IMG/VR virus record: IMGVR_UViG_3300042864_002206
Location: 1 to 33,381 of that record
DNA length: 33,381 bases
Source of the DNA: a virus
Strand: one strand, 5' to 3'
Part shown: piece by piece, positions 21,238 through 32,939 of the stretch
Layout of the letters: each line of letters starts with the position of its first letter
Numbering within the stretch: the stretch's first letter is position 1
The notes under the pieces: generated by a model
Databases searched by the model: none
What the model saw: only the letters and a program-made list of their open reading frames with translations
Told to the model about the DNA's origin: nothing
Position numbers and translations under genes: made by a program

Positions 21238-23757
21238 TTATTGTTGAGTTACTTTTACAGTAAAGTTATTTGTATTTGAACTCTCTTTAGCTGTTGCGTA
21301 TACATTTGTTCCGACAACTTTATATCTAAATTTAGAGATTGCACTATGTGTTGAGTTATTTAATTGTGATACCAAATCTGTAATATTTGAATATGAAGGA
21401 ACTGTATATGGATCGTGTAATCCCATACGAATCTTATATCCTGCAGTTGGTGCACCTATTGAAAATCCTTGTAGAAAATCCGATTGATACGATAATTGAT
21501 AGAATTTAGTATGAAAAAGATCCCCTATTTTTGCATCGGCTAAATCGCTCATTCTTGGTTTTAGCGAATTTTCGCCAAGACCCCAAGCATAAGAATAATC
21601 AGAATTTAGAGTTGAATCGCCTAGGGTTTTATAAACTCCATTTAATTGATCTTTAATTTTGGCTTGAGTTGGGGCAGTGTTATTACTAAAATTATTTGCA
21701 TAATAAGCCCAATCAAATAATTCTTTTTCTAAATCGATTGATCCTATTTTTTGGGTAAATGATGCAATAGTAACATTTGGATTAAACATATAACTTCCTC
21801 CCATATCGCCAACTGTAACGTTAGTTAAGTCTTTAAATTGATATGAGAATTTATCTGAAGTTCTAGCAAAACCGACAGTAGTTGCAATAGTTGAGTTTAC
21901 TGTAAATTTAGTAAAGTCTACTGAAATTCCAGCAAATTGATCGTAAACTCTTAATTCTACTAAATAGTCTCCAACATATGGTAAAAAGTGAACAATTTGA
22001 TTAAAATCATAGATTGATCCACGATAACTCCACTTATATGGATTTGGTGCATTCTTAGTAATTATCCACTCCGCGTCAACTAAATTTAAGAAGGTTATGA
22101 TATCGCGAACTCTAGCACCTTCTGTTTCAAGGTCAGCGAACGTAATTCCATCATAATCCATTATTCTATATTTAGGTAAATTTGCAGTTAATATAATTGG
22201 ACAACCGAGTTGTTCTTTTACGTTTACTTCACCATTTGACCAATAATAAGAGCTTCCATGTTTTTTCCACTCTTCTTCTTGAACCTGGTTATAGAAAACT
22301 TCAACTGCGTTAATTAGAGCTTTTTGCTGAGTTGCTGAATACTTTTGTTGATTTTCATATGGATTAGCAATTGCAGAAAATACTCCATCTTTGTTTTTAC
22401 CTGTATTAAATGAGTATTTTGGAAAGCCTGTTAAAATTTTAGTTGGGTTATTAGTTTCAGCCTCAGTTGAATAAAATAGTGGGCGAATATCTCTAATATA
22501 TGGAACAGCGATTGTTGATTTTGGAAAATCTACTGATGCTTTAATTTTAGTATTAACATCAACGCTTCTGGTTTGAACGTCATCTGTCCAATATCTAATA
22601 TTAAATTTCTCAAAGAAAATAAATTCTCCAATAATATCTCTAACAATTACATGTATTGGTAAAATTTCTCTTTTTAATTTCTTAGCAAGACCATCTAATT
22701 TGTAAAATATTTCAGCTGGGGTAAAATCAGTAGTTTCAACTACTTCAGGTAAACCGTCATCATCATAATTATCAGTAGCTTTAGTAAATTGATAGCATAG
22801 TGCAATAAAAGAGGTCTTTTTGAATTGAGCTGACTCTAATACTGAGCCTCCGGTTGAAACATAAACCATATTATCAACCTTGCCGTCGTCTAAGAAATCT
22901 GTAATATTAACTAGAGCAAATTGGTCCAGTGCAGCAGAGGTACTATTGACATTTTGCCAAAATTCTTTAACCTCTAACGTATCTTTATATCCAAATAAAT
23001 TTATAAAATTACTTAAGCCTTTGTATGTTCCAACATATGGAAATACCTGATCGCGATTTACTAGTAATTGTTTTCTAGCTGCATCAATTTGTTTCCAATC
23101 TGGTAAAGCCTCTTTAATATCATAATCTTTTAATAGTTGAGCGTCATCTCTATGGAAAGTTATTCCAAAGTTATTAAGCCACATTCTATATCTGGAGTCT
23201 TCGTCTGTACCTTCTCCATAATAGTCAATTTCTAAAATCTTAACTGAACTTGAAACTGTACCATTGGATAAGGTTTCGTGATATGCATAAAGTTTACGTT
23301 GATAGATCTTTTCTTCGGATGGAGAAAAAGCTATATTTACTTGTAGAGGTAATCTAATATCAAGAGGTGCGCTTGATCCATTTGAAAAATTTGAATGGTT
23401 AAGGATTACTTGATTTACCTTTTCAATATATGGAGAATCGACATCACTATTTCCGGTAATATCTTGTTTAACTACATATAGAAAAAATGGTTGATCTCCA
23501 TCTATGTCAATTGATTCCCATTTAAATACGATTCTTTCGTTTTGGGATAAAATTGGAAATTTATAGTCAGTTGAATCCTTTTCTACTGCAAAAATTTGAC
23601 GGCTGTCGTAAAGACCAATCGAAATTGGATCAATATACTCTCGGCCATACCACCAAGTAATAGAGTCTGTAGACTGGGTCTCAGAATTAAACTTAGTAGT
23701 CTGAAAGTTATAGTTTTCACCAAACTTATCAAAAAATATGAGGTTTGAAAGTTGCAT
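21238..23757 (-). CDS. Putative baseplate protein (tail protein I / gp7-like region), 839 aa
   Basis: I chose the ATG at 23757 (MQLSNLIFFDKFGENYNFQT); a TTG directly before it at 23760 is in frame but less likely. Residues about 217-266 (NRDQVFPYVGTYKGLSNFIN, then LFGYKDTLEVKEFW) resemble the K-G-T/L ... G-Y ... E-W region of contractile-tail baseplate wedge proteins of the tail protein I type. This is a family-level impression, not a firm match. A PKD-like segment lies near 561-609 (NPYKWSYRGSIYDF, VGDYLVELRVYDQFAG). It is the first gene of the late block, 41 nt after the sigma gene. It has its own late octamer and a start-site inverted repeat, and ends one base before the next ATG. Confidence 0.65.
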   Translation of the reverse strand: MQLSNLIFFDKFGENYNFQTTKFNSETQSTDSITWWYGREYIDPISIGLYDSRQIFAVEKDSTDYKFPILSQNERIVFKWESIDIDGDQPFFLYVVKQDITGNSDVDSPYIEKVNQVILNHSNFSNGSSAPLDIRLPLQVNIAFSPSEEKIYQRKLYAYHETLSNGTVSSSVKILEIDYYGEGTDEDSRYRMWLNNFGITFHRDDAQLLKDYDIKEALPDWKQIDAARKQLLVNRDQVFPYVGTYKGLSNFINLFGYKDTLEVKEFWQNVNSTSAALDQFALVNITDFLDDGKVDNMVYVSTGGSVLESAQFKKTSFIALCYQFTKATDNYDDDGLPEVVETTDFTPAEIFYKLDGLAKKLKREILPIHVIVRDIIGEFIFFEKFNIRYWTDDVQTRSVDVNTKIKASVDFPKSTIAVPYIRDIRPLFYSTEAETNNPTKILTGFPKYSFNTGKNKDGVFSAIANPYENQQKYSATQQKALINAVEVFYNQVQEEEWKKHGSSYYWSNGEVNVKEQLGCPIILTANLPKYRIMDYDGITFADLETEGARVRDIITFLNLVDAEWIITKNAPNPYKWSYRGSIYDFNQIVHFLPYVGDYLVELRVYDQFAGISVDFTKFTVNSTIATTVGFARTSDKFSYQFKDLTNVTVGDMGGSYMFNPNVTIASFTQKIGSIDLEKELFDWAYYANNFSNNTAPTQAKIKDQLNGVYKTLGDSTLNSDYSYAWGLGENSLKPRMSDLADAKIGDLFHTKFYQLSYQSDFLQGFSIGAPTAGYKIRMGLHDPYTVPSYSNITDLVSQLNNSTHSAISKFRYKVVGTNVYATAKESSNTNNFTVKVTQQ

Positions 23758-23758
23758 C

Positions 23759-23800
23759 AACTTGGCTTTTTGTTATTTATTAGCCAGGAAATGGCAAGTT
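23759..23800. repeat. Inverted repeat enclosing a late promoter next to a start codon
   Basis: TGGCT at 23763-23767 pairs with AGCCA at 23782-23786, with a 14-nt loop that holds the AATAAATA octamer. AACTTG at 23759-23764 can alternatively pair with CAAGTT at 23795-23800. In minus-strand RNA the downstream arm ends 1-2 nt before the ATG at 23757. The two pairings are mutually competing, so the exact fold is uncertain. Confidence 0.5.
23774..23781 (-). promoter_or_regulatory. Putative late promoter element AATAAATA
   Basis: On the minus strand GGCTAATAAATAACAAAAA carries AATAAATA 16 nt before the ATG at 23757. An 18-base match to the sequence before the 340 aa gene supports a shared functional element. 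It would launch the main late transcript toward 1435. Confidence 0.6.
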
Positions 23801-24218
23801 AGATCGTGTAGATTTCGCTCTCGCCAGAGTGGCTCAGGGAAATAGTAACAATCTTTTCGCCTTTACCAATATGCTTATAGATCTTTTTATATTCCTTAGC
23901 ATATCCATTCTTGGCGATCTGGGTAAAGTAGGCAAATGCATTATTAGATTTTTCTTCATTAAAGTTTCGCCAATATCTTAAAAGGTCAAGCAAAGCTGAT
24001 TGAATACAGTCTTCTCTATCCAATGGATTTTGGAATTTTAACTTTTGAATAGCGCGGTTAGCTAATAAGATAAAATAATCAATTGCTTTAGGGGAAAGCT
24101 CGCCAGCTGTATGCTGATAGCCGGTTTCTTCATTTAGGTGTCCGTGTTTACAGCGGATAATTTCATTAGTAAAGTCTCTATTATTAATATAGTACTTTGG
24201 ATCTTTAATTCTTGCCAT
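23799..24218 (-). CDS. 55: Late sigma factor, T4 gp55-like, 139 aa
   Basis: Residues about 68-112 (DREDCIQSALLDLLRYWRNF, then NEEKSNNAFAYFTQIAKNGYAKEYKKI) match sigma region 2 in layout: a helix ending in W-x-N/K-F, the F-x-Y-x-T/Q core-binding helix, and a basic end. T4 gp55 has the closely similar pattern HNFDETKYKNPHAYITQ followed by lysine/arginine-rich sequence. As in gp55 there is no region 3/4. At 139 residues it is shorter than T4 gp55 (185). In T4 the factor directs host RNA polymerase to TATAAATA late promoters through its clamp and coactivator contacts. The C-terminus (SGESEIYTI) is acidic/hydrophobic and might be a clamp-binding tail, which is an inference. Its ATG overlaps the stop of the RuvC-like gene. 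Confidence 0.75.
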   Translation of the reverse strand: MARIKDPKYYINNRDFTNEIIRCKHGHLNEETGYQHTAGELSPKAIDYFILLANRAIQKLKFQNPLDREDCIQSALLDLLRYWRNFNEEKSNNAFAYFTQIAKNGYAKEYKKIYKHIGKGEKIVTISLSHSGESEIYTI

Positions 24219-25063: not shown

Positions 25064-25109
25064 CCAAAACTTAAGATTCTTTAGTATATTGTTTCTAAAT
25101 TATTAGGCA

Positions 25110-25859
25110 ATGTTTACACCTCAACAAATTTCTAAGATGGTCTTTTTTGATATTGAGACCTCAACGACTACCCAAGATGCTGGTTCCCTGAGCCCCGCAC
25201 TACAAAATCAGTGGCATAAGCGAGCTGAATACCTTCGTGATACTCTTTCACAAAAATATCCAGATAATAAAACCCTAAGCGATGAAGATCTTTTTACACA
25301 GAAAGCTGCTCTTCAAGCAGAGTTCGGTAGAATAGTCTGTATTAGTTTTGGTCGTATTACTTATAAGGATGGCGAACCTACATTTACAGTAGCAGCTATT
25401 TCAGGAGAAAACGAAGAAGAGCTTTTAATTAAGGCTCAAAAATCTATTTCTAAAATATTTTCAACTGGAGGAATCTTAGTCGGTCATAATATTAAGAGAT
25501 TTGATATTCCATACCTTTGTAAACGTATGTTAATTAATGGATTATCTGTTCCAGATGAATTACATTTTCATAATAAGAAACCTTGGGAAATTCCTATGCA
25601 AGACACAATGGATATTTGGTCATTTGGTGCTTGGCAAGAAGGTTTCGCTTCACTAGATCTTATTTGTGGAGTATTAGGGATCCCTTCACCAAAGGGCGCT
25701 ATGCGAGGCGAAGAGGTTCCAGCTGCCTTTTGGCAAGGTAGACTCGAAGAAATTGCCCAATATAATATGGAAGATGTTATTGCACTCGGGCGTATTATAT
25801 TAAAGGTATCTGGACTAAACTTGTTTGAAGAAGAGAGTATAACAAGAAATACGCTATAA
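25110..25859 (+). CDS. DEDDy 3'-5' exonuclease (PolB-exonuclease-like), 249 aa
   Basis: The three exonuclease motifs are visible. Exo I is VFFDIETS with D14 and E16. Exo II is GHNIKRFDIPYL with D132. Exo III is YNMEDVIAL with Y218 and D222, the Y-x3-D form that defines the DEDDy subclass. Length and motif spacing match stand-alone predicted exonucleases related to the proofreading domain of family B polymerases. It would remove 3' nucleotides in replication, repair or recombination, or degrade host DNA. It is the first plus-strand gene after the divergent control region and is followed 14 nt later by groEL. The start ATG at 25110 has no Shine-Dalgarno (TTATTAGGCAATG). Confidence 0.8.
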   Translation: MFTPQQISKMVFFDIETSTTTQDAGSLSPALQNQWHKRAEYLRDTLSQKYPDNKTLSDEDLFTQKAALQAEFGRIVCISFGRITYKDGEPTFTVAAISGENEEELLIKAQKSISKIFSTGGILVGHNIKRFDIPYLCKRMLINGLSVPDELHFHNKKPWEIPMQDTMDIWSFGAWQEGFASLDLICGVLGIPSPKGAMRGEEVPAAFWQGRLEEIAQYNMEDVIALGRIILKVSGLNLFEEESITRNTL

Positions 25860-25873: not shown

Positions 25874-27466
25874 ATGTCAAAGACTATAATTTTTGATGCT
25901 GATGCAAGAAACCGACTTAAAGTTGGTGTTGATACATTAGCAAATTCAGTAAAAGTAACAATGGGTCCCGGTGGTCGTAATGTTGTTATTGCAAGAGACG
26001 GCGGTTTAGCTGTTACAAAAGATGGAGTTTCTGTTGCTAGAGAAGTTGAATTATCAGATGCTATTGCTGACGTTGGTGCGCAAATGGTAAAACAGGTTGC
26101 ACACAAAGTTGCTCAATTAGCTGGTGATGGTACAACCACTGCTACAGTATTAACTCAAGAAATTTTTAACCGTGGACTTAAAGCAGTTGCAACTGGAGCC
26201 AATCCAATTGAATTAAAAAGAGGAATGGATGCAGCTTTAACTGAAATAGTTTCTGCTCTAGCTGAATCTTCAATTCCAGTTAAAGATCTTACACATATTC
26301 ACCAAGTTGCTACAATTTCTGCAAATAATGATGAATCAATGGGAGCCTTAATTACACAATGTATGGAGGCAGTTGGATTTGATGGTATTATTACCGTTGA
26401 ACAAAGCAAATCTGCTGAAACTTATGTTGATATTGTAGAAGGCATGCAGTTTAAATCAGGTTACTTATCACCCTATTTTATTAATTCTAATGAAAAACCT
26501 CAAGTTGAATTTGAAAATGCGCTAATCTTATTAGTAGATGGCAAAGTTTCAGTTTTAAATGATATTGTTCAATTCTTAGAATATTCAAACCAAAAAGGTC
26601 GCCCACTCCTAGTTATTTCTGAAAGTGTTGATGGCGATGCACTAAATACAATGGTTCTTAATAAACTAAGAGGTACTATTAAAGCGGCTGCGGTTAGAGC
26701 TCCAGGCTTTGGCGAATTACGTAAAGAAAATTTAGATGATATTGCAATCTTAACAGGTGCAAAAACCGTTTCAGAAAGAGAAGGTTATTCATTAAGTGAA
26801 ACCGTTGCATCTGAAGTATTAGGTTCTGCAACTAAAGTTATTGTTACAGCTGAATCTACTACAATTATTGGTGGAGAAGGCGAACCAGAATCAATTAAAG
26901 AGCGTATTTCTGATATTAATGCTCAAATTGAAAATAGTACAAACGAATCTGCAACCCTAATTCTTAAAGAGCGTCTTGCTAGATTAGATGGAGGTGTTGC
27001 TATTATTAAAGTAGGCGCACATTCTGAAATTGAAATGCGTGAAAAAATTGACCGTATTGATGATGCGATTGGCGCAACCAGAGCAGCAGTCGAAGAAGGT
27101 ATTGTTGTGGGTGGAGGAGTTGCTCTTTGTAAAATTTCAGAAAAGCTTGGTCCAACAATTGCCCAAACACAAAATTTTGAACACCGCCTTGGTCGTACCA
27201 TCTTATTAGAATCATGTCTATCACCATTTAGAGTTATTTTAACTAATGCTGGTGAATCTCCAGATGCGGTTCTTTCAGAAATGAAAAACCGAGGGTTAGA
27301 ATATAATGTAAAAGCCAGAGAATACTGCAATTTTATTGAGTCTGGTATTATTGACCCAGTAAAAGTTACCAGAGTAGCACTAGAAAATGCAGTATCGATT
27401 GCCTCTATGATGTTGACTACTGAATGTTTAATGGTTCAGGAAAAACCTACAGAAACTAAAGCGTAA
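25874..27466 (+). CDS. groEL: GroEL-type chaperonin, 530 aa
   Basis: This is a full-length group I chaperonin (E. coli GroEL has 548 residues). The ATP site is intact: TMGPGGRNV (about 29-37), TKDGVSVARE with D50, GDGTTTATVL (84-93), and RIDDAIGATRAAVEEG near 396 with the catalytic Asp. GIVVGGGVAL follows. Apical hydrophobic residues that bind substrate and GroES are largely kept (GYLSPYF; DALNTMVLNKLRG). The usual C-terminal GGM-rich tail is absent; it ends ECLMVQEKPTETKA. No groES-like gene is adjacent. In phages, GroEL or its cofactor helps fold the capsid and other large virion proteins. It lies between the exonuclease and a giant putative virion gene. Confidence 0.97.
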   Translation: MSKTIIFDADARNRLKVGVDTLANSVKVTMGPGGRNVVIARDGGLAVTKDGVSVAREVELSDAIADVGAQMVKQVAHKVAQLAGDGTTTATVLTQEIFNRGLKAVATGANPIELKRGMDAALTEIVSALAESSIPVKDLTHIHQVATISANNDESMGALITQCMEAVGFDGIITVEQSKSAETYVDIVEGMQFKSGYLSPYFINSNEKPQVEFENALILLVDGKVSVLNDIVQFLEYSNQKGRPLLVISESVDGDALNTMVLNKLRGTIKAAAVRAPGFGELRKENLDDIAILTGAKTVSEREGYSLSETVASEVLGSATKVIVTAESTTIIGGEGEPESIKERISDINAQIENSTNESATLILKERLARLDGGVAIIKVGAHSEIEMREKIDRIDDAIGATRAAVEEGIVVGGGVALCKISEKLGPTIAQTQNFEHRLGRTILLESCLSPFRVILTNAGESPDAVLSEMKNRGLEYNVKAREYCNFIESGIIDPVKVTRVALENAVSIASMMLTTECLMVQEKPTETKA

Positions 27467-27479
27467 TTAAATTTCGCTG

Positions 27480-27510
27480 AAGTCTTCGTTAAATAAAAAA
27501 AAGAAGACTT
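27480..27510. repeat. 8-bp hairpin with late-promoter-like loop before a TTG start
   Basis: AAGTCTTC at 27480-27487 and GAAGACTT at 27503-27510 are perfect reverse complements around the 15-nt loop GTTAAATAAAAAAAA. The downstream arm ends 3 nt before the TTG at 27514. No U-tract follows the stem, so it is not a standard terminator. Confidence 0.6.
27488..27495 (+). promoter_or_regulatory. Possible late promoter element GTTAAATA in hairpin loop
   Basis: GTTAAATA matches TATAAATA at 6 of 8 positions and ends 18 nt before the TTG at 27514, the same spacing as the stronger elements. A transcript starting about 6 nt downstream would lack the upstream hairpin arm. Confidence 0.35.
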
Positions 27511-27513
27511 GCT

Positions 27514-30500
27514 TTGTCAGAAATCGACAGTCTTATTGAACAAATTAAGTGCGAGCTACGAGAAAACCCCTTCTTTTCAGAAGGGGATCTTGCTGCTTTA
27601 GATGAGTGTCTTCCTACCTCAGATGAAATTGAAGCAGCTCAGCGCGAACAAATTACAGATCTTGTAACAGAAGATCCTTGTGCAAAGAAGACAATTGACG
27701 CGGTTAGCGCCGAACTTGAAAAGAATGACGCTAAACTTAAAGCCGCTGTTAAATCTAAATATGTAATTTCTAGACTACAGGAGTTAAGAGATCTTCTATA
27801 TCCAGCTGAATATTTTTATAAAACCCGAGCAGACTTCTTTAATTTAATTGTTAAGGATCTTGATGCAAGATTTACTGTACCTGGTGCTGATGTCAATGCA
27901 CAATTTACTACAATTTTAAATAAGTATGATTTTAATTCATATAAATTTAATGGAGCAGCAACAACAACTACAATATCTGAAATTGACCAACTTAATAAAG
28001 ATATTAAAAAGCAAGTTGAAGAATATTTTAGCAAAAAGTCACTAGCTATTGGTAAATCTGATCCAATTGTATATTCATATAATGCAACAAATCCAACTTT
28101 CTTAATAACTTTACCTGGAAAAGACGGTTTTAACATTAAATCTTCAGAAAATCAAAAAACCGGTAAGGTTGACTCTATGGGTAATTCTGAAACTAAACAA
28201 GTTGAAGTTAATATTAAGATTTTACCAGAGGCGTCTATCTATGAAACAAAAACAAAGGTTTTCCAAAAGAGAACTTTAGATATTGTTAAATTTGCATCAC
28301 AAAGCTATACTGATAAGTCTGCAACGGACTCACTATATCCATTTACTGGAAGTTTAGCCGATTTTTATAAGAAGATCGAAGACCCATTAAAACTTTTTAC
28401 TCTAGAAGAAAAGGGCTTAACTACAGATTCAGCTAAAGTTGATAAAAACCTAACAAAGGAAAAACTTGATGGGTTAGTTAAAGAAAAAAGAGCAGATGGT
28501 AGAGAAGAACAATTCGATATTGAAAATACTGAGCAATATCAGAAATTTTATGAAAATCTTGAACCTAAAATTGAAGAACGTATTGAAGTAGAGCGCAAGA
28601 AATTTAGAAGAGGTCTTATTGAAACAGGAAAATTTTTAAAGTTACATAATCTTGCTAGAAAACAGGTTTTTGATTTAGTTAATAATGCAGAGTTAAAAAC
28701 TAAACCAACTGAAAAGCTTATAGTTGATGGTAAAACTATTCAACCTGCTGTATACGGCGGTCAAATTAGAGATAAGATCTTAGTTAGTTCAACTGAGATT
28801 TCCACCTTAATTAAAGATATTGAGACACTAATTGCTAAAATTAAAAAGGATAATACTCCAAATCCAGATGATTTAGCAATTGCACTAACTGCAACTGGGT
28901 GTGTTCCACCAGATCAGGGTCCATGTAAAAAGCTTGAAAAAGCCGGATCCGATCCAATGGGATATAAATCTATGACGTCAGTACCATTGGTTGCAAATCC
29001 AGATTATACATGTGGTTGTTATTGGAAAGAAGTAACTAAACACTTAAACAAGTTAAATTTGTTACCAATACCTGATATAATGCGGCTACCTGCTCTTAGA
29101 TATTGGCCAATTGGATTAATTATTCCAACCCCTGTTCCAATTAGAATTCCATTACCTCAAATTTGGTTCCATATTGTTACGCTAAATCTTCCATTTGGAA
29201 CCTTAGTTGTGTGGTATGTTCAATGCGGAATTGTGCCATCACCAATTGTTATGTACATTGGACCAGATGGTAAAAAGATTATCTTATTAAGTTTTAGAGC
29301 CTTACAAGGTCAGTTTGACCCAGTTGGTTATACGATAGATGAAGCTAGTGTTGCTCCATTAGGAATTAACCAAACCTCAATTGGAAAACCTAGTGGAACT
29401 GCAGCAAAGACCATTACATTTGGTAATATTATGGTAAATGCAAAACTTCAAAAAGTTGCAAAGGTTGCTGCACAAGCTCAAGCCCTATTGGAACTTGCCG
29501 ATCCTGGTAAATTAATGCCAAATGGATTTAATATTCCATTTAAACCAGGAGAAACTCCATCCTGGAAAACTGGCGATGAAGACTTTTTAGATACAGCAAC
29601 AACTGCACTTGGAGATTTTAAAGTATTTGTTCAAAATATTAGCAGAACCATTTGTGTTAAAATTGATGAACTTGGAGATTTTGAATTACCTAATTTTTCT
29701 ATTGCATTAAGAAATGCACAAGAGGCACAGCAAAACCGTCAAACCCTATTAAGTGGAGTCCCATATAATTTTGATCAAGCTTGGTTAAATTGTGATCCAA
29801 ACAATCTATATTCAGCAATTCCATCTAACTTTTCACTAGCTAATGATAATATCGATTCACAAGCTTGTAAAGAAATGGTATTATCTCTTTCTTTAGACTT
29901 AGATAAATTTTTAGATAAACTTAAACTTGGTACCTATACTATTCCAAAAGAAAAAGGCAAATCAATTAAACCTGAAGCAATGCTAGATGGATTAATCGAT
30001 TCAGTTATGGAATACATGTCTAGAACAAACTTTGGAAAAGCTAAATCAATCAATTTTAATAAGAAGTTTAGAAAAGCTATGCGGGACCTTGATTTAAATG
30101 CAGATATAGATGCGCTTGCCGCTAAAGTTGATATAACTAAAGTAGAAAGTGTTACGGCATTTAAGAAAACCGCTAAAAAATATGTTGACCAAATCTGTGA
30201 TGTTTTTTCTGGAAAAAACTTAAAGGTAAAAAAAGATTCTCCAGAATTTCAAAGAAAGGTTGATGCAGAAATAGCCAAAAGGAAACGTTTTAACGATAGA
30301 AATGCAGAGTATGATGCAAATCATCCAAAACAAGCAGCTAGGGTTCAGAAATATGAAAAAAGTATTGGAAAAGAAACGCCTAGGGCTTTATCTACCGATA
30401 GATTAGTTGTTGAAAATTATGTGTATGAAGCCGAAGTTAAAAAAAGAAAACGTTTTGCAGAATTATTAGGCCAAACCATTGCAGGGTTTACTAAACCAAT

Positions 30501-31539
30501 TAAAGATGCGCTTGGAAATTTTACACAAATCGTAAAACCTAAGTGCTGTCCAAGCGATCTAGAACTTCCTCAATTCATAGATCCATTGGTTCTTGCAATA
30601 ATTATGTCATTTAAACAGTTAGCACATGCGGCAATCGATGCGCTAACTACAGATTTAATTAAAACTATCTTTGGAGAAGTTTTTAGTGTAACCAAAGAAA
30701 TTATCCAATCAATAACTAATTTAATTGCTAAAAGTATTCCAAATATAGACATTCCATTAAACGGGGCAGCCGCTCTTCAACTTCTTTTAGGTATACTAAA
30801 GCCATTTTTACCTTTATTAAGGATTCCATTAGGGCCTTTACCTAGAACCCTAGGAGTTCCTCAATTAAGTTTAAATCTAGACGCATTAATTAAACCTTTG
30901 CTTAAAGCTGGAATTCAAATTTTAATGGATAAGATTTTAAGTTTTCTTCCTATTAGAATATGCGATCTTCCGATTACTGCAATATCGACAGCATGGATTT
31001 CAGCCCTATTTAGAGGAATAAAATCCGCTCTTAAAAAGGCAATTGTCGAATTAATTGAAACAATCTTGGATCCATTGCAATCTCTTTTTAAACTAATTAA
31101 TTTATTAAAAGGGGTTAAAGGCGCTTTTACTGCACTATTTGATATGACAAATCCATTTCTTAAAATTTATAAAATGATTAAGGAGGCTCTTGAAAGATCA
31201 CTACCTACCCCAGCCTTTATTAAAACTATAAATCAATTAATCCTATTAGCTCAGCTGGAAGTATTAAAAGTTATGGATAAAGCAACCAAGAAATTACCAG
31301 ATATTGCAGTATATCTTCCAATTTCAGCTGGACAAGCGTTAGGTTTAGGCAATATTTTAAGAGCAGGCGTCCATCCAATTCTAAACCAAGACGACCTTCC
31401 AACTTGGGATCGATTAAGCATGAAGAACCCACTTTATGTAATGTTCCTAGACGACCTTGCACATAAAGCAAAAGCTGCAACTGGTACAATCTTAGGCCAA
31501 GACTTTATTGGCAACCCAGTATACGTTCCTACTCCATAA
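27514..31539 (+). CDS. Large putative virion protein with hydrophobic Pro-rich and C-terminal segments, 1341 aa
   Basis: The start is TTG at 27514 (MSEIDSLIEQIKCELRENPF); no nearby in-frame ATG exists and upstream codons run into a stop. The N-terminal 450 residues are charged and helical. Cysteines at about 463, 471, 500 and 502 form a C-x7-C ... C-x-C group that could bind metal. A Pro-rich hydrophobic stretch follows (about 525-585; WPIGLIIPTPVPIRIPLPQI, GTLVVWYVQCGIVPSPIVMY). After a second charged helical region, residues about 1016-1230 are strongly hydrophobic/amphipathic (LLLGILKPFLPLLRIPLGPL; LIKPLLKAGIQILMDKIL). I recognise no family. A virion protein that contacts membrane, a tape-measure-like protein or an injected protein are possibilities. 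It lies between groEL and the S1-like gene. Confidence 0.75.
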   Translation: MSEIDSLIEQIKCELRENPFFSEGDLAALDECLPTSDEIEAAQREQITDLVTEDPCAKKTIDAVSAELEKNDAKLKAAVKSKYVISRLQELRDLLYPAEYFYKTRADFFNLIVKDLDARFTVPGADVNAQFTTILNKYDFNSYKFNGAATTTTISEIDQLNKDIKKQVEEYFSKKSLAIGKSDPIVYSYNATNPTFLITLPGKDGFNIKSSENQKTGKVDSMGNSETKQVEVNIKILPEASIYETKTKVFQKRTLDIVKFASQSYTDKSATDSLYPFTGSLADFYKKIEDPLKLFTLEEKGLTTDSAKVDKNLTKEKLDGLVKEKRADGREEQFDIENTEQYQKFYENLEPKIEERIEVERKKFRRGLIETGKFLKLHNLARKQVFDLVNNAELKTKPTEKLIVDGKTIQPAVYGGQIRDKILVSSTEISTLIKDIETLIAKIKKDNTPNPDDLAIALTATGCVPPDQGPCKKLEKAGSDPMGYKSMTSVPLVANPDYTCGCYWKEVTKHLNKLNLLPIPDIMRLPALRYWPIGLIIPTPVPIRIPLPQIWFHIVTLNLPFGTLVVWYVQCGIVPSPIVMYIGPDGKKIILLSFRALQGQFDPVGYTIDEASVAPLGINQTSIGKPSGTAAKTITFGNIMVNAKLQKVAKVAAQAQALLELADPGKLMPNGFNIPFKPGETPSWKTGDEDFLDTATTALGDFKVFVQNISRTICVKIDELGDFELPNFSIALRNAQEAQQNRQTLLSGVPYNFDQAWLNCDPNNLYSAIPSNFSLANDNIDSQACKEMVLSLSLDLDKFLDKLKLGTYTIPKEKGKSIKPEAMLDGLIDSVMEYMSRTNFGKAKSINFNKKFRKAMRDLDLNADIDALAAKVDITKVESVTAFKKTAKKYVDQICDVFSGKNLKVKKDSPEFQRKVDAEIAKRKRFNDRNAEYDANHPKQAARVQKYEKSIGKETPRALSTDRLVVENYVYEAEVKKRKRFAELLGQTIAGFTKPIKDALGNFTQIVKPKCCPSDLELPQFIDPLVLAIIMSFKQLAHAAIDALTTDLIKTIFGEVFSVTKEIIQSITNLIAKSIPNIDIPLNGAAALQLLLGILKPFLPLLRIPLGPLPRTLGVPQLSLNLDALIKPLLKAGIQILMDKILSFLPIRICDLPITAISTAWISALFRGIKSALKKAIVELIETILDPLQSLFKLINLLKGVKGAFTALFDMTNPFLKIYKMIKEALERSLPTPAFIKTINQLILLAQLEVLKVMDKATKKLPDIAVYLPISAGQALGLGNILRAGVHPILNQDDLPTWDRLSMKNPLYVMFLDDLAHKAKAATGTILGQDFIGNPVYVPTP

Positions 31540-31563
31540 TTAAAACTACTGGCCCTTTATCGG

Positions 31564-31569
31564 TATAAT
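31564..31569 (+). promoter_or_regulatory. Possible -10 box TATAAT before the S1-like gene
   Basis: CGGTATAATATTT contains a perfect TATAAT, 26 nt before the ATG at 31596, in a 56-bp gap. No convincing -35 box is present 16-18 nt upstream. Confidence 0.3.
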
Positions 31570-32798: not shown

Positions 32799-32939
32799 AT
32801 GACACACGGCAAAATTACACCAGATGTTAAGTTGAAAGCACGTCAAATTACAGAAAATAGCGAAGCTTGTCACAAATCAACATCCATTTTTAAAGCCCAA
32901 CCGAGTCAAACTTTATTCACCTTTAAAAAATTAAATTAA
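32799..32939 (+). CDS. Small hypothetical protein, 46 aa
   Basis: ATG at 32799 opens a 46-codon frame ending TAA at 32939: [20 protein letters not shown], then [20 protein letters not shown] and TFKKLN. It is basic and hydrophilic, with no membrane segment. It fills the gap between the S1-like gene and nrdB, ending 5 nt before the nrdB ATG, as expected for a genuine tightly packed gene. I recognise no family; it does not resemble bS21 or GroES. A leader or attenuator peptide for nrdB cannot be excluded. Confidence 0.5.

Follow-up and report, generated by a model that had tools for sequence, protein, structure and literature searches.

Several late genes of phage T4 have their promoters embedded in hairpins at the start site (PMC3014915, PMC2988022). 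Gene e lies behind early/middle genes on the same strand, with the late promoter in the loop of a hairpin whose 3′ arm adjoins the start, and its late RNA lacks the 5′ arm (PMC3014915). The same logic applies to the hairpins of soc, 49, I-TevI/II/III, segB and Aeh1 mobE (PMC2988022, PMC3014915). For the jumbo phages of Bacteroidota, the literature searched described neither late promoters nor hairpins at start sites. Here we describe a hairpin ahead of a gene for a giant protein of 1341 amino acids in a phage sequence from IMG/VR, the whole record of which (33,381 b; hereafter, the window) was analysed. The hairpin has the layout of those of T4 e, soc and 49, and resembles that of gene e in gene order, in the position of the promoter and of the 3′ arm and, here by sequence geometry only, in a late RNA without the 5′ arm. 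However, the gene e stem is more stable and hides a strong Shine-Dalgarno site (PMC3014915), whereas here there is no such site and the UUG start lies 3 nt outside the stem. Likewise, hosts and ribosome-binding sites differ between the window's phage and the soc, 49, I-TevI/II/III, segB and mobE systems, although the soc hairpin contains the same second-position T variant, TTTAAATA, as the window's site.

The preliminary description of this DNA had placed GTTAAATA in the loop of a hairpin with 8-bp arms ahead of a TTG start, and direct reading of the sequence bears this out (Table 1). The triplet GCT (27511-27513) separates the 3′ arm from the TTG (27514-27516) that opens the 1341-aa frame; the stem covers positions -11 to -4 relative to the TTG, and the start codon is unpaired and outside it. 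Folded alone with ViennaRNA, the hairpin forms the 8-bp stem at -9.1 kcal/mol. About 7.6 kcal/mol of folding energy is lost when the RNA begins in the loop (shuffle P 0.015-0.055), and this bridging energy of -7.6 kcal/mol makes the hairpin less stable than its T4 counterparts (soc, -9.7; 49, -14.3; e, -14.9). An Rfam search of positions 27000-28000 gave no match.

By itself the stem is unremarkable and modestly improbable (2-7%). Perfect stems of at least 8 bp ending 0-12 nt before the start arose in 2.4% of 3000 dinucleotide shuffles of the 47-nt gap, those of at least 7 bp in 6.9%, and a genome-wide count in a 217-kb relative gave start-site stems of at least 7 bp in 13 of 251 genes. What is noteworthy is that the stem coincides with a late promoter, and that it is conserved. 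A late-promoter score this good 15-28 nt before the start was seen in 0.13% of 3000 gap shuffles, and stem and score jointly in 0.03%. Hairpins at late promoters in general show a weak enrichment (about 12% at P ≤0.05), and this stem is the longest around any of the 127 late-promoter sites in seven genomes, redundancy counted.

Table 1. Features of the groEL-giant gene region of the window.
Feature	Position	Strand	Basis or remark
gp55-like late sigma factor gene	23799..24218	-	phrog_234, E 2e-17
Early/middle-type promoter motif GTATATT ahead of exo	25084..25090	+	motif class
PolB-type 3′-5′ exonuclease (exo) gene, first of the exo-groEL unit	25110..25859	+	protein matches
groEL-like chaperonin gene	25874..27466	+	protein matches; 47 nt upstream of giant gene
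Hairpin 5′ arm AAGTCTTC	27480..27487	+	sequence, fold, alignment; 27481-27487 invariant in 7 genomes, 27480 = A/T/C
Hairpin loop GTTAAATAAAAAAAA, 15 nt	27488-27502	+	sequence read directly
Late-promoter element GTTAAATA, core TTAAATA 27489-27495	27488..27495	+	weight-matrix rank 7, shuffle P 0.0013, invariant
Predicted late RNA 5′ end	27499..27503 (27501 by T4 geometry)	+	inferred from T4 late-promoter layout
Hairpin 3′ arm GAAGACTT	27503..27510	+	sequence, fold, alignment; 3 nt upstream of start codon
Giant gene, 1341 aa	27514..31539	+	open frame; TTG start kept in 7 genomes; weak tape-measure matches
Early/middle-type promoter motif GTATAAT ahead of S1-domain gene	31563..31569	+	motif class

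The phage appears to lie among Bacteroidota myoviruses. A 1227-aa structural protein encoded nearby matches proteins of Tenacibaculum PTm1/PTm5/pT24, Chryseobacterium MA9V, Flavobacterium MaF61, PAU and Prevotella Lak phages, a family held in common with Bacteroidota jumbo phages (bS21-encoding, PMC9723584; Tenacibaculum PTm1/pT24, PAU, Lak). A bS21 gene was present in four of the five relatives searched, and is also carried by lake phages predicted to infect Bacteroidota (PMC9723584). Leaders in the phage group are rich in A and poor in G, and Shine-Dalgarno usage is slight or absent: the signal precedes 23 of 217 genes in the main relative, versus 18 after shuffling, and 13 of 120 versus 3 in another. 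In this they resemble Flavobacterium, in which initiation is tuned by leader structure and by A at -3, -6 and -11 to -14 (PMC6847099). Taken together, the structural-protein matches, bS21 and the A-rich leaders make a Bacteroidota host likely.

Because an exact TATAAATA is absent from the window, the late motif was derived from relatives. K-mer enrichment without prior assumption in a 216,815-b relative (the contig of L005) returned GATAAATA, ATAAATAA and AATAAATA as the top upstream octamers. The resulting family motif, [GA]ATAAATAAYWAAAAA, also written [GA]ATAAATAA, typically lies 15-28 nt upstream of structural-gene starts; in two relatives, the distance from ATAAATA to the start is 15-28 nt at 56 of 77 sites and 4-6 nt at 13, and the class is found ahead of baseplate-wedge and head genes. 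The loop site has one mismatch to this motif, and agrees with it in the core, in the A-rich downstream run and in the spacing, the TTAAATA core being 18 nt upstream of the TTG. In a weight-matrix scan of all window positions on both strands, the hairpin site was the seventh best, and those outranking it are mainly intergenic consensus sites ahead of late-type genes. Its score (11.0 for GTTAAATAAAAAAAAG) is at the low end of the training range of 10.2-23.7; the matrix was trained on exact ATAAATA cores and so penalises the T at position 1. As in T4-type late promoters, in which the box lies about one turn ahead of the transcription start, the site has a TATAAATA-like box with AT-rich DNA downstream and no -35 element. 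The late-promoter-like element of the preliminary description thus agrees with the family motif, spacing and context, and the window encodes a gp55-like sigma factor, 34-41% identical to gp55-like proteins. We infer that the element is a late promoter; by analogy with the arrangement of T4 late promoters (PMC2988020), late RNA is predicted to have its 5′ end in the loop.

The gene order around the hairpin suggests how early transcripts might reach the giant gene. groEL begins 14 nt after exo and, in a motif scan of the window, lacked a separate promoter; the giant gene is followed by an S1-domain gene. A second promoter class, (TTA)GTATA(A/T)T, precedes exonuclease genes and, in a relative, those for DNA polymerase and a DnaB-like helicase. 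Since both the exo-groEL unit and the S1-domain gene carry this class, the giant late gene would sit within an early/middle cluster; and since the exo-groEL promoter is of this other class, common to DNA polymerase and helicase genes, read-through from exo-groEL is to be expected. In the window's clade the groEL-giant gap is compact, 47 nt, and holds no good terminator, so that, as for T4 e, soc and 49, the late gene is predicted to be reachable by early/middle transcripts of the same strand, here from the GTATATT unit.

Protein scans, alignment scans and a DNA pattern identified six close relatives, seven distant ones and one cut contig, and a search of genome contigs found no others. The close set consists of the window and the six relatives covering the start, with giant proteins 71-85% identical. 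Seven base pairs of the stem, the whole loop and the TTG are unchanged in the seven genomes, and the invariant stretch spans 30 nt including the loop, whereas the flanking part of the gap varies at 7 of its 14 positions (Fisher P 0.047, with the 5′ arm considered by itself). The next pair outward is A-T in four genomes and unpaired, an uncompensated loss, in three; beyond it, three genomes have T-A or T-G pairs. The expectation that both arms would be conserved and covary was thus borne out in part: both arms are invariant in the six relatives, but the conserved stem is of 7 bp rather than 8, and there is no covariation among the seven genomes, with no variable inner pair and no compensated change. 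Moreover, conservation in the same genomes is often just as high in the 10 nt that precede other late promoters. For these two reasons, invariance supports the hairpin but falls short of proof.

The seven distant phages (L125-L131, of which L129 and L131 are close to each other), retrieved by alignment search, share the order exo-groEL-giant-S1, with giant proteins 24-29% identical. Their groEL-giant gap is longer (86-112 nt) and contains a terminator in all seven, with a stem of 7-11 bp, -11 to -19 kcal/mol, and U-rich tails such as TTGCTTTTTT. A late-type box (ATAGATAAAATAA, ATAGATAAAAAAAAG, ATAAATAATTAAAA) follows the terminator and precedes the start, least clearly in L127, and none of the seven has a promoter-enclosing hairpin bridging the predicted transcription start beyond chance (P 0.23 to 1). 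In alignment, the box of L130, GTCGATAGATAAAAAAAAG, falls opposite TTCGTTAAATAAAAAAAAG of the window, so the promoter ahead of the giant gene is probably ancestral; in the window's clade, the terminator would have been lost, and arms now enclose the promoter. We also considered homology of the 3′ arm and its tail to the distant terminator tail, which is disfavoured as the promoters align with each other instead. That all seven distant relatives have a terminator here suggests that early read-through into the giant gene is something to be prevented. This either/or pattern is the best evidence that read-through is guarded against and supports the hairpin as the guard here, in one hairpin-bearing clade. 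The available text of PMC2988022 and PMC3014915 describes no exchange of terminator and hairpin at an orthologous gene for T4-type hairpins.

On balance, we favour a late promoter nested in a translation-blocking hairpin, after the model of T4 e and soc, as the probable explanation. Early RNA from the promoter before exo, read through groEL, would carry both arms, and the stem at -11 to -4 of a weak UUG start would keep the 30S subunit off the leader, so that synthesis of the giant protein would be withheld early in infection. With the gp55-like factor available, polymerase would start in the loop near 27501, giving a late RNA with the 3′ arm only and an open leader of 13 nt, which could be translated. 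The existence of the read-through RNA, the formation of the hairpin with its block of initiation and the late start in the loop are all predictions from sequence. The read-through timing model of the preliminary description is supported in part, by the gp55-like gene, promoter classes, gene order, conservation and the distant terminator. Because the phage group does not use Shine-Dalgarno sites, the masked element would be an A-rich leader rather than a T4-style ribosome-binding site.

The late promoter could, however, be real and the inverted repeat around it fortuitous, kept by descent and by constraint on promoter and leader, with read-through handled otherwise. The chance of 2-7% per gap, the 13 of 251 genes with such a stem, the frequent invariance of the 10 nt upstream of other late promoters and the lack of covariation all fit this idea. 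Against it, the stem is the longest promoter-enclosing one in the clade and is found at the one late gene directly behind groEL, exactly where the terminator of the distant relatives is missing; we regard a fortuitous stem as unlikely. The hairpin might also be a weakened intrinsic terminator of exo-groEL transcripts, making the early block transcriptional. Its tail, TTGCTTTG, resembles the relatives' TTGCTTTTTT, at the same place and with TT(G/A)CTTT in both groups, a 6-bp reading of the stem gives it 6 T in 9 nt, and seven of seven distant relatives do have a terminator in this gap. Yet the 6-bp AT-rich stem yields -5.4 kcal/mol, versus -11 to -19 in the relatives, the loop is of 15 nt, the stem has three GC pairs, the U-tract in TTGCTTTG is broken, the terminator scan does not call the site, and the alignment matches it to the relatives' promoter and not to their terminator, all of which renders a terminator quite improbable. 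Finally, an operator, in DNA or RNA, at which a phage regulator acts and which overlaps promoter and start (cf. the I-TevI operator or RegA-type repression) would account for the complete invariance across 30 nt including the loop. However, the 12-nt loop core does not recur exactly in the relatives' records and there is no candidate regulator, and we consider an operator very improbable.

The giant protein itself gave no Pfam match and weak tape-measure matches in PHROG, and the AlphaFold model of its C-terminal 902 aa is poor (pLDDT 46). Its family (1300-1700 aa; 27514-31539 in the window, and L125-L131) is always encoded between groEL and the S1-domain gene and has a conserved C-terminal motif, HPIxNxDDLPxWxRLxxKNPL. 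Codons 18-25 of the giant gene hold a strong inverted repeat, CCCCTTCT/AGAAGGGG (27567-27586), which is terminator-like on the minus strand and mostly retained in relatives, but is also coding.

Other loci of these phages show comparable arrangements. The gp55-like gene is followed by an 840-aa gene whose late promoter is enclosed by a short TGGCT/AGCCA stem (23755-23805, minus strand) kept in seven genomes; here too a late-type gene comes after a regulatory one of the same strand. A leaderless-type late gene of 236 aa (MALH...; L057:3155-3865 (-), G001 69029-69739 (-), G002 83842 (+), G005 56119 (+)), called LamG-like from a reading of its sequence by eye, has promoter and start codon inside an AGCCA/TGGCT hairpin; between the two lineages, whose proteins are 34-46% identical, one outer pair shows a compensated change, reading G-C or A-T. 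A 78-aa gene in L053 (G001 207494-207730, minus strand), of which no orthologue was found in the other genomes, has the same TTAAATA variant as the window's site, enclosed by an 8-bp hairpin, GTTGTTAA...TTAACAAC, that stops 7 nt short of the gene's start. Further candidates for nested promoters are a 249-aa leaderless gene and a 1960-aa gene; we treat the LamG-like, 249-aa, 1960-aa and 78-aa genes as leads. A 46-aa ORF (32799-32939, plus strand) and its equivalents in G001, G003, G004, G006 and G002 have a GATAAATA box 6-7 nt ahead of their start, without exception among the genomes covering the site; together with the 4-6-nt spacing class (13/77 ATAAATA sites), this points to a group of late mRNAs with no leader or almost none. 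A 201-aa gene that has a late promoter is immediately followed by a bS21 gene (L045:1629-1823, minus strand), and late bS21 could alter the choice of start sites by ribosomes in Bacteroidota.

It is conceivable, though doubtful at present, that hairpin-nested late promoters are a recurrent timing device of the large T4-related phages of Bacteroidota, free of Shine-Dalgarno sites, interchangeable in evolution with a terminator and extended to leaderless late genes with the start codon in the hairpin. The swap of terminator and hairpin at one orthologous gene would represent two solutions to the same problem. If true, the classic timing device of T4 would extend to a remote group of phages with hosts that disregard Shine-Dalgarno sites, and the locus would provide a clean natural experiment on the power of leader structure, by itself, to switch translation in Bacteroidota.
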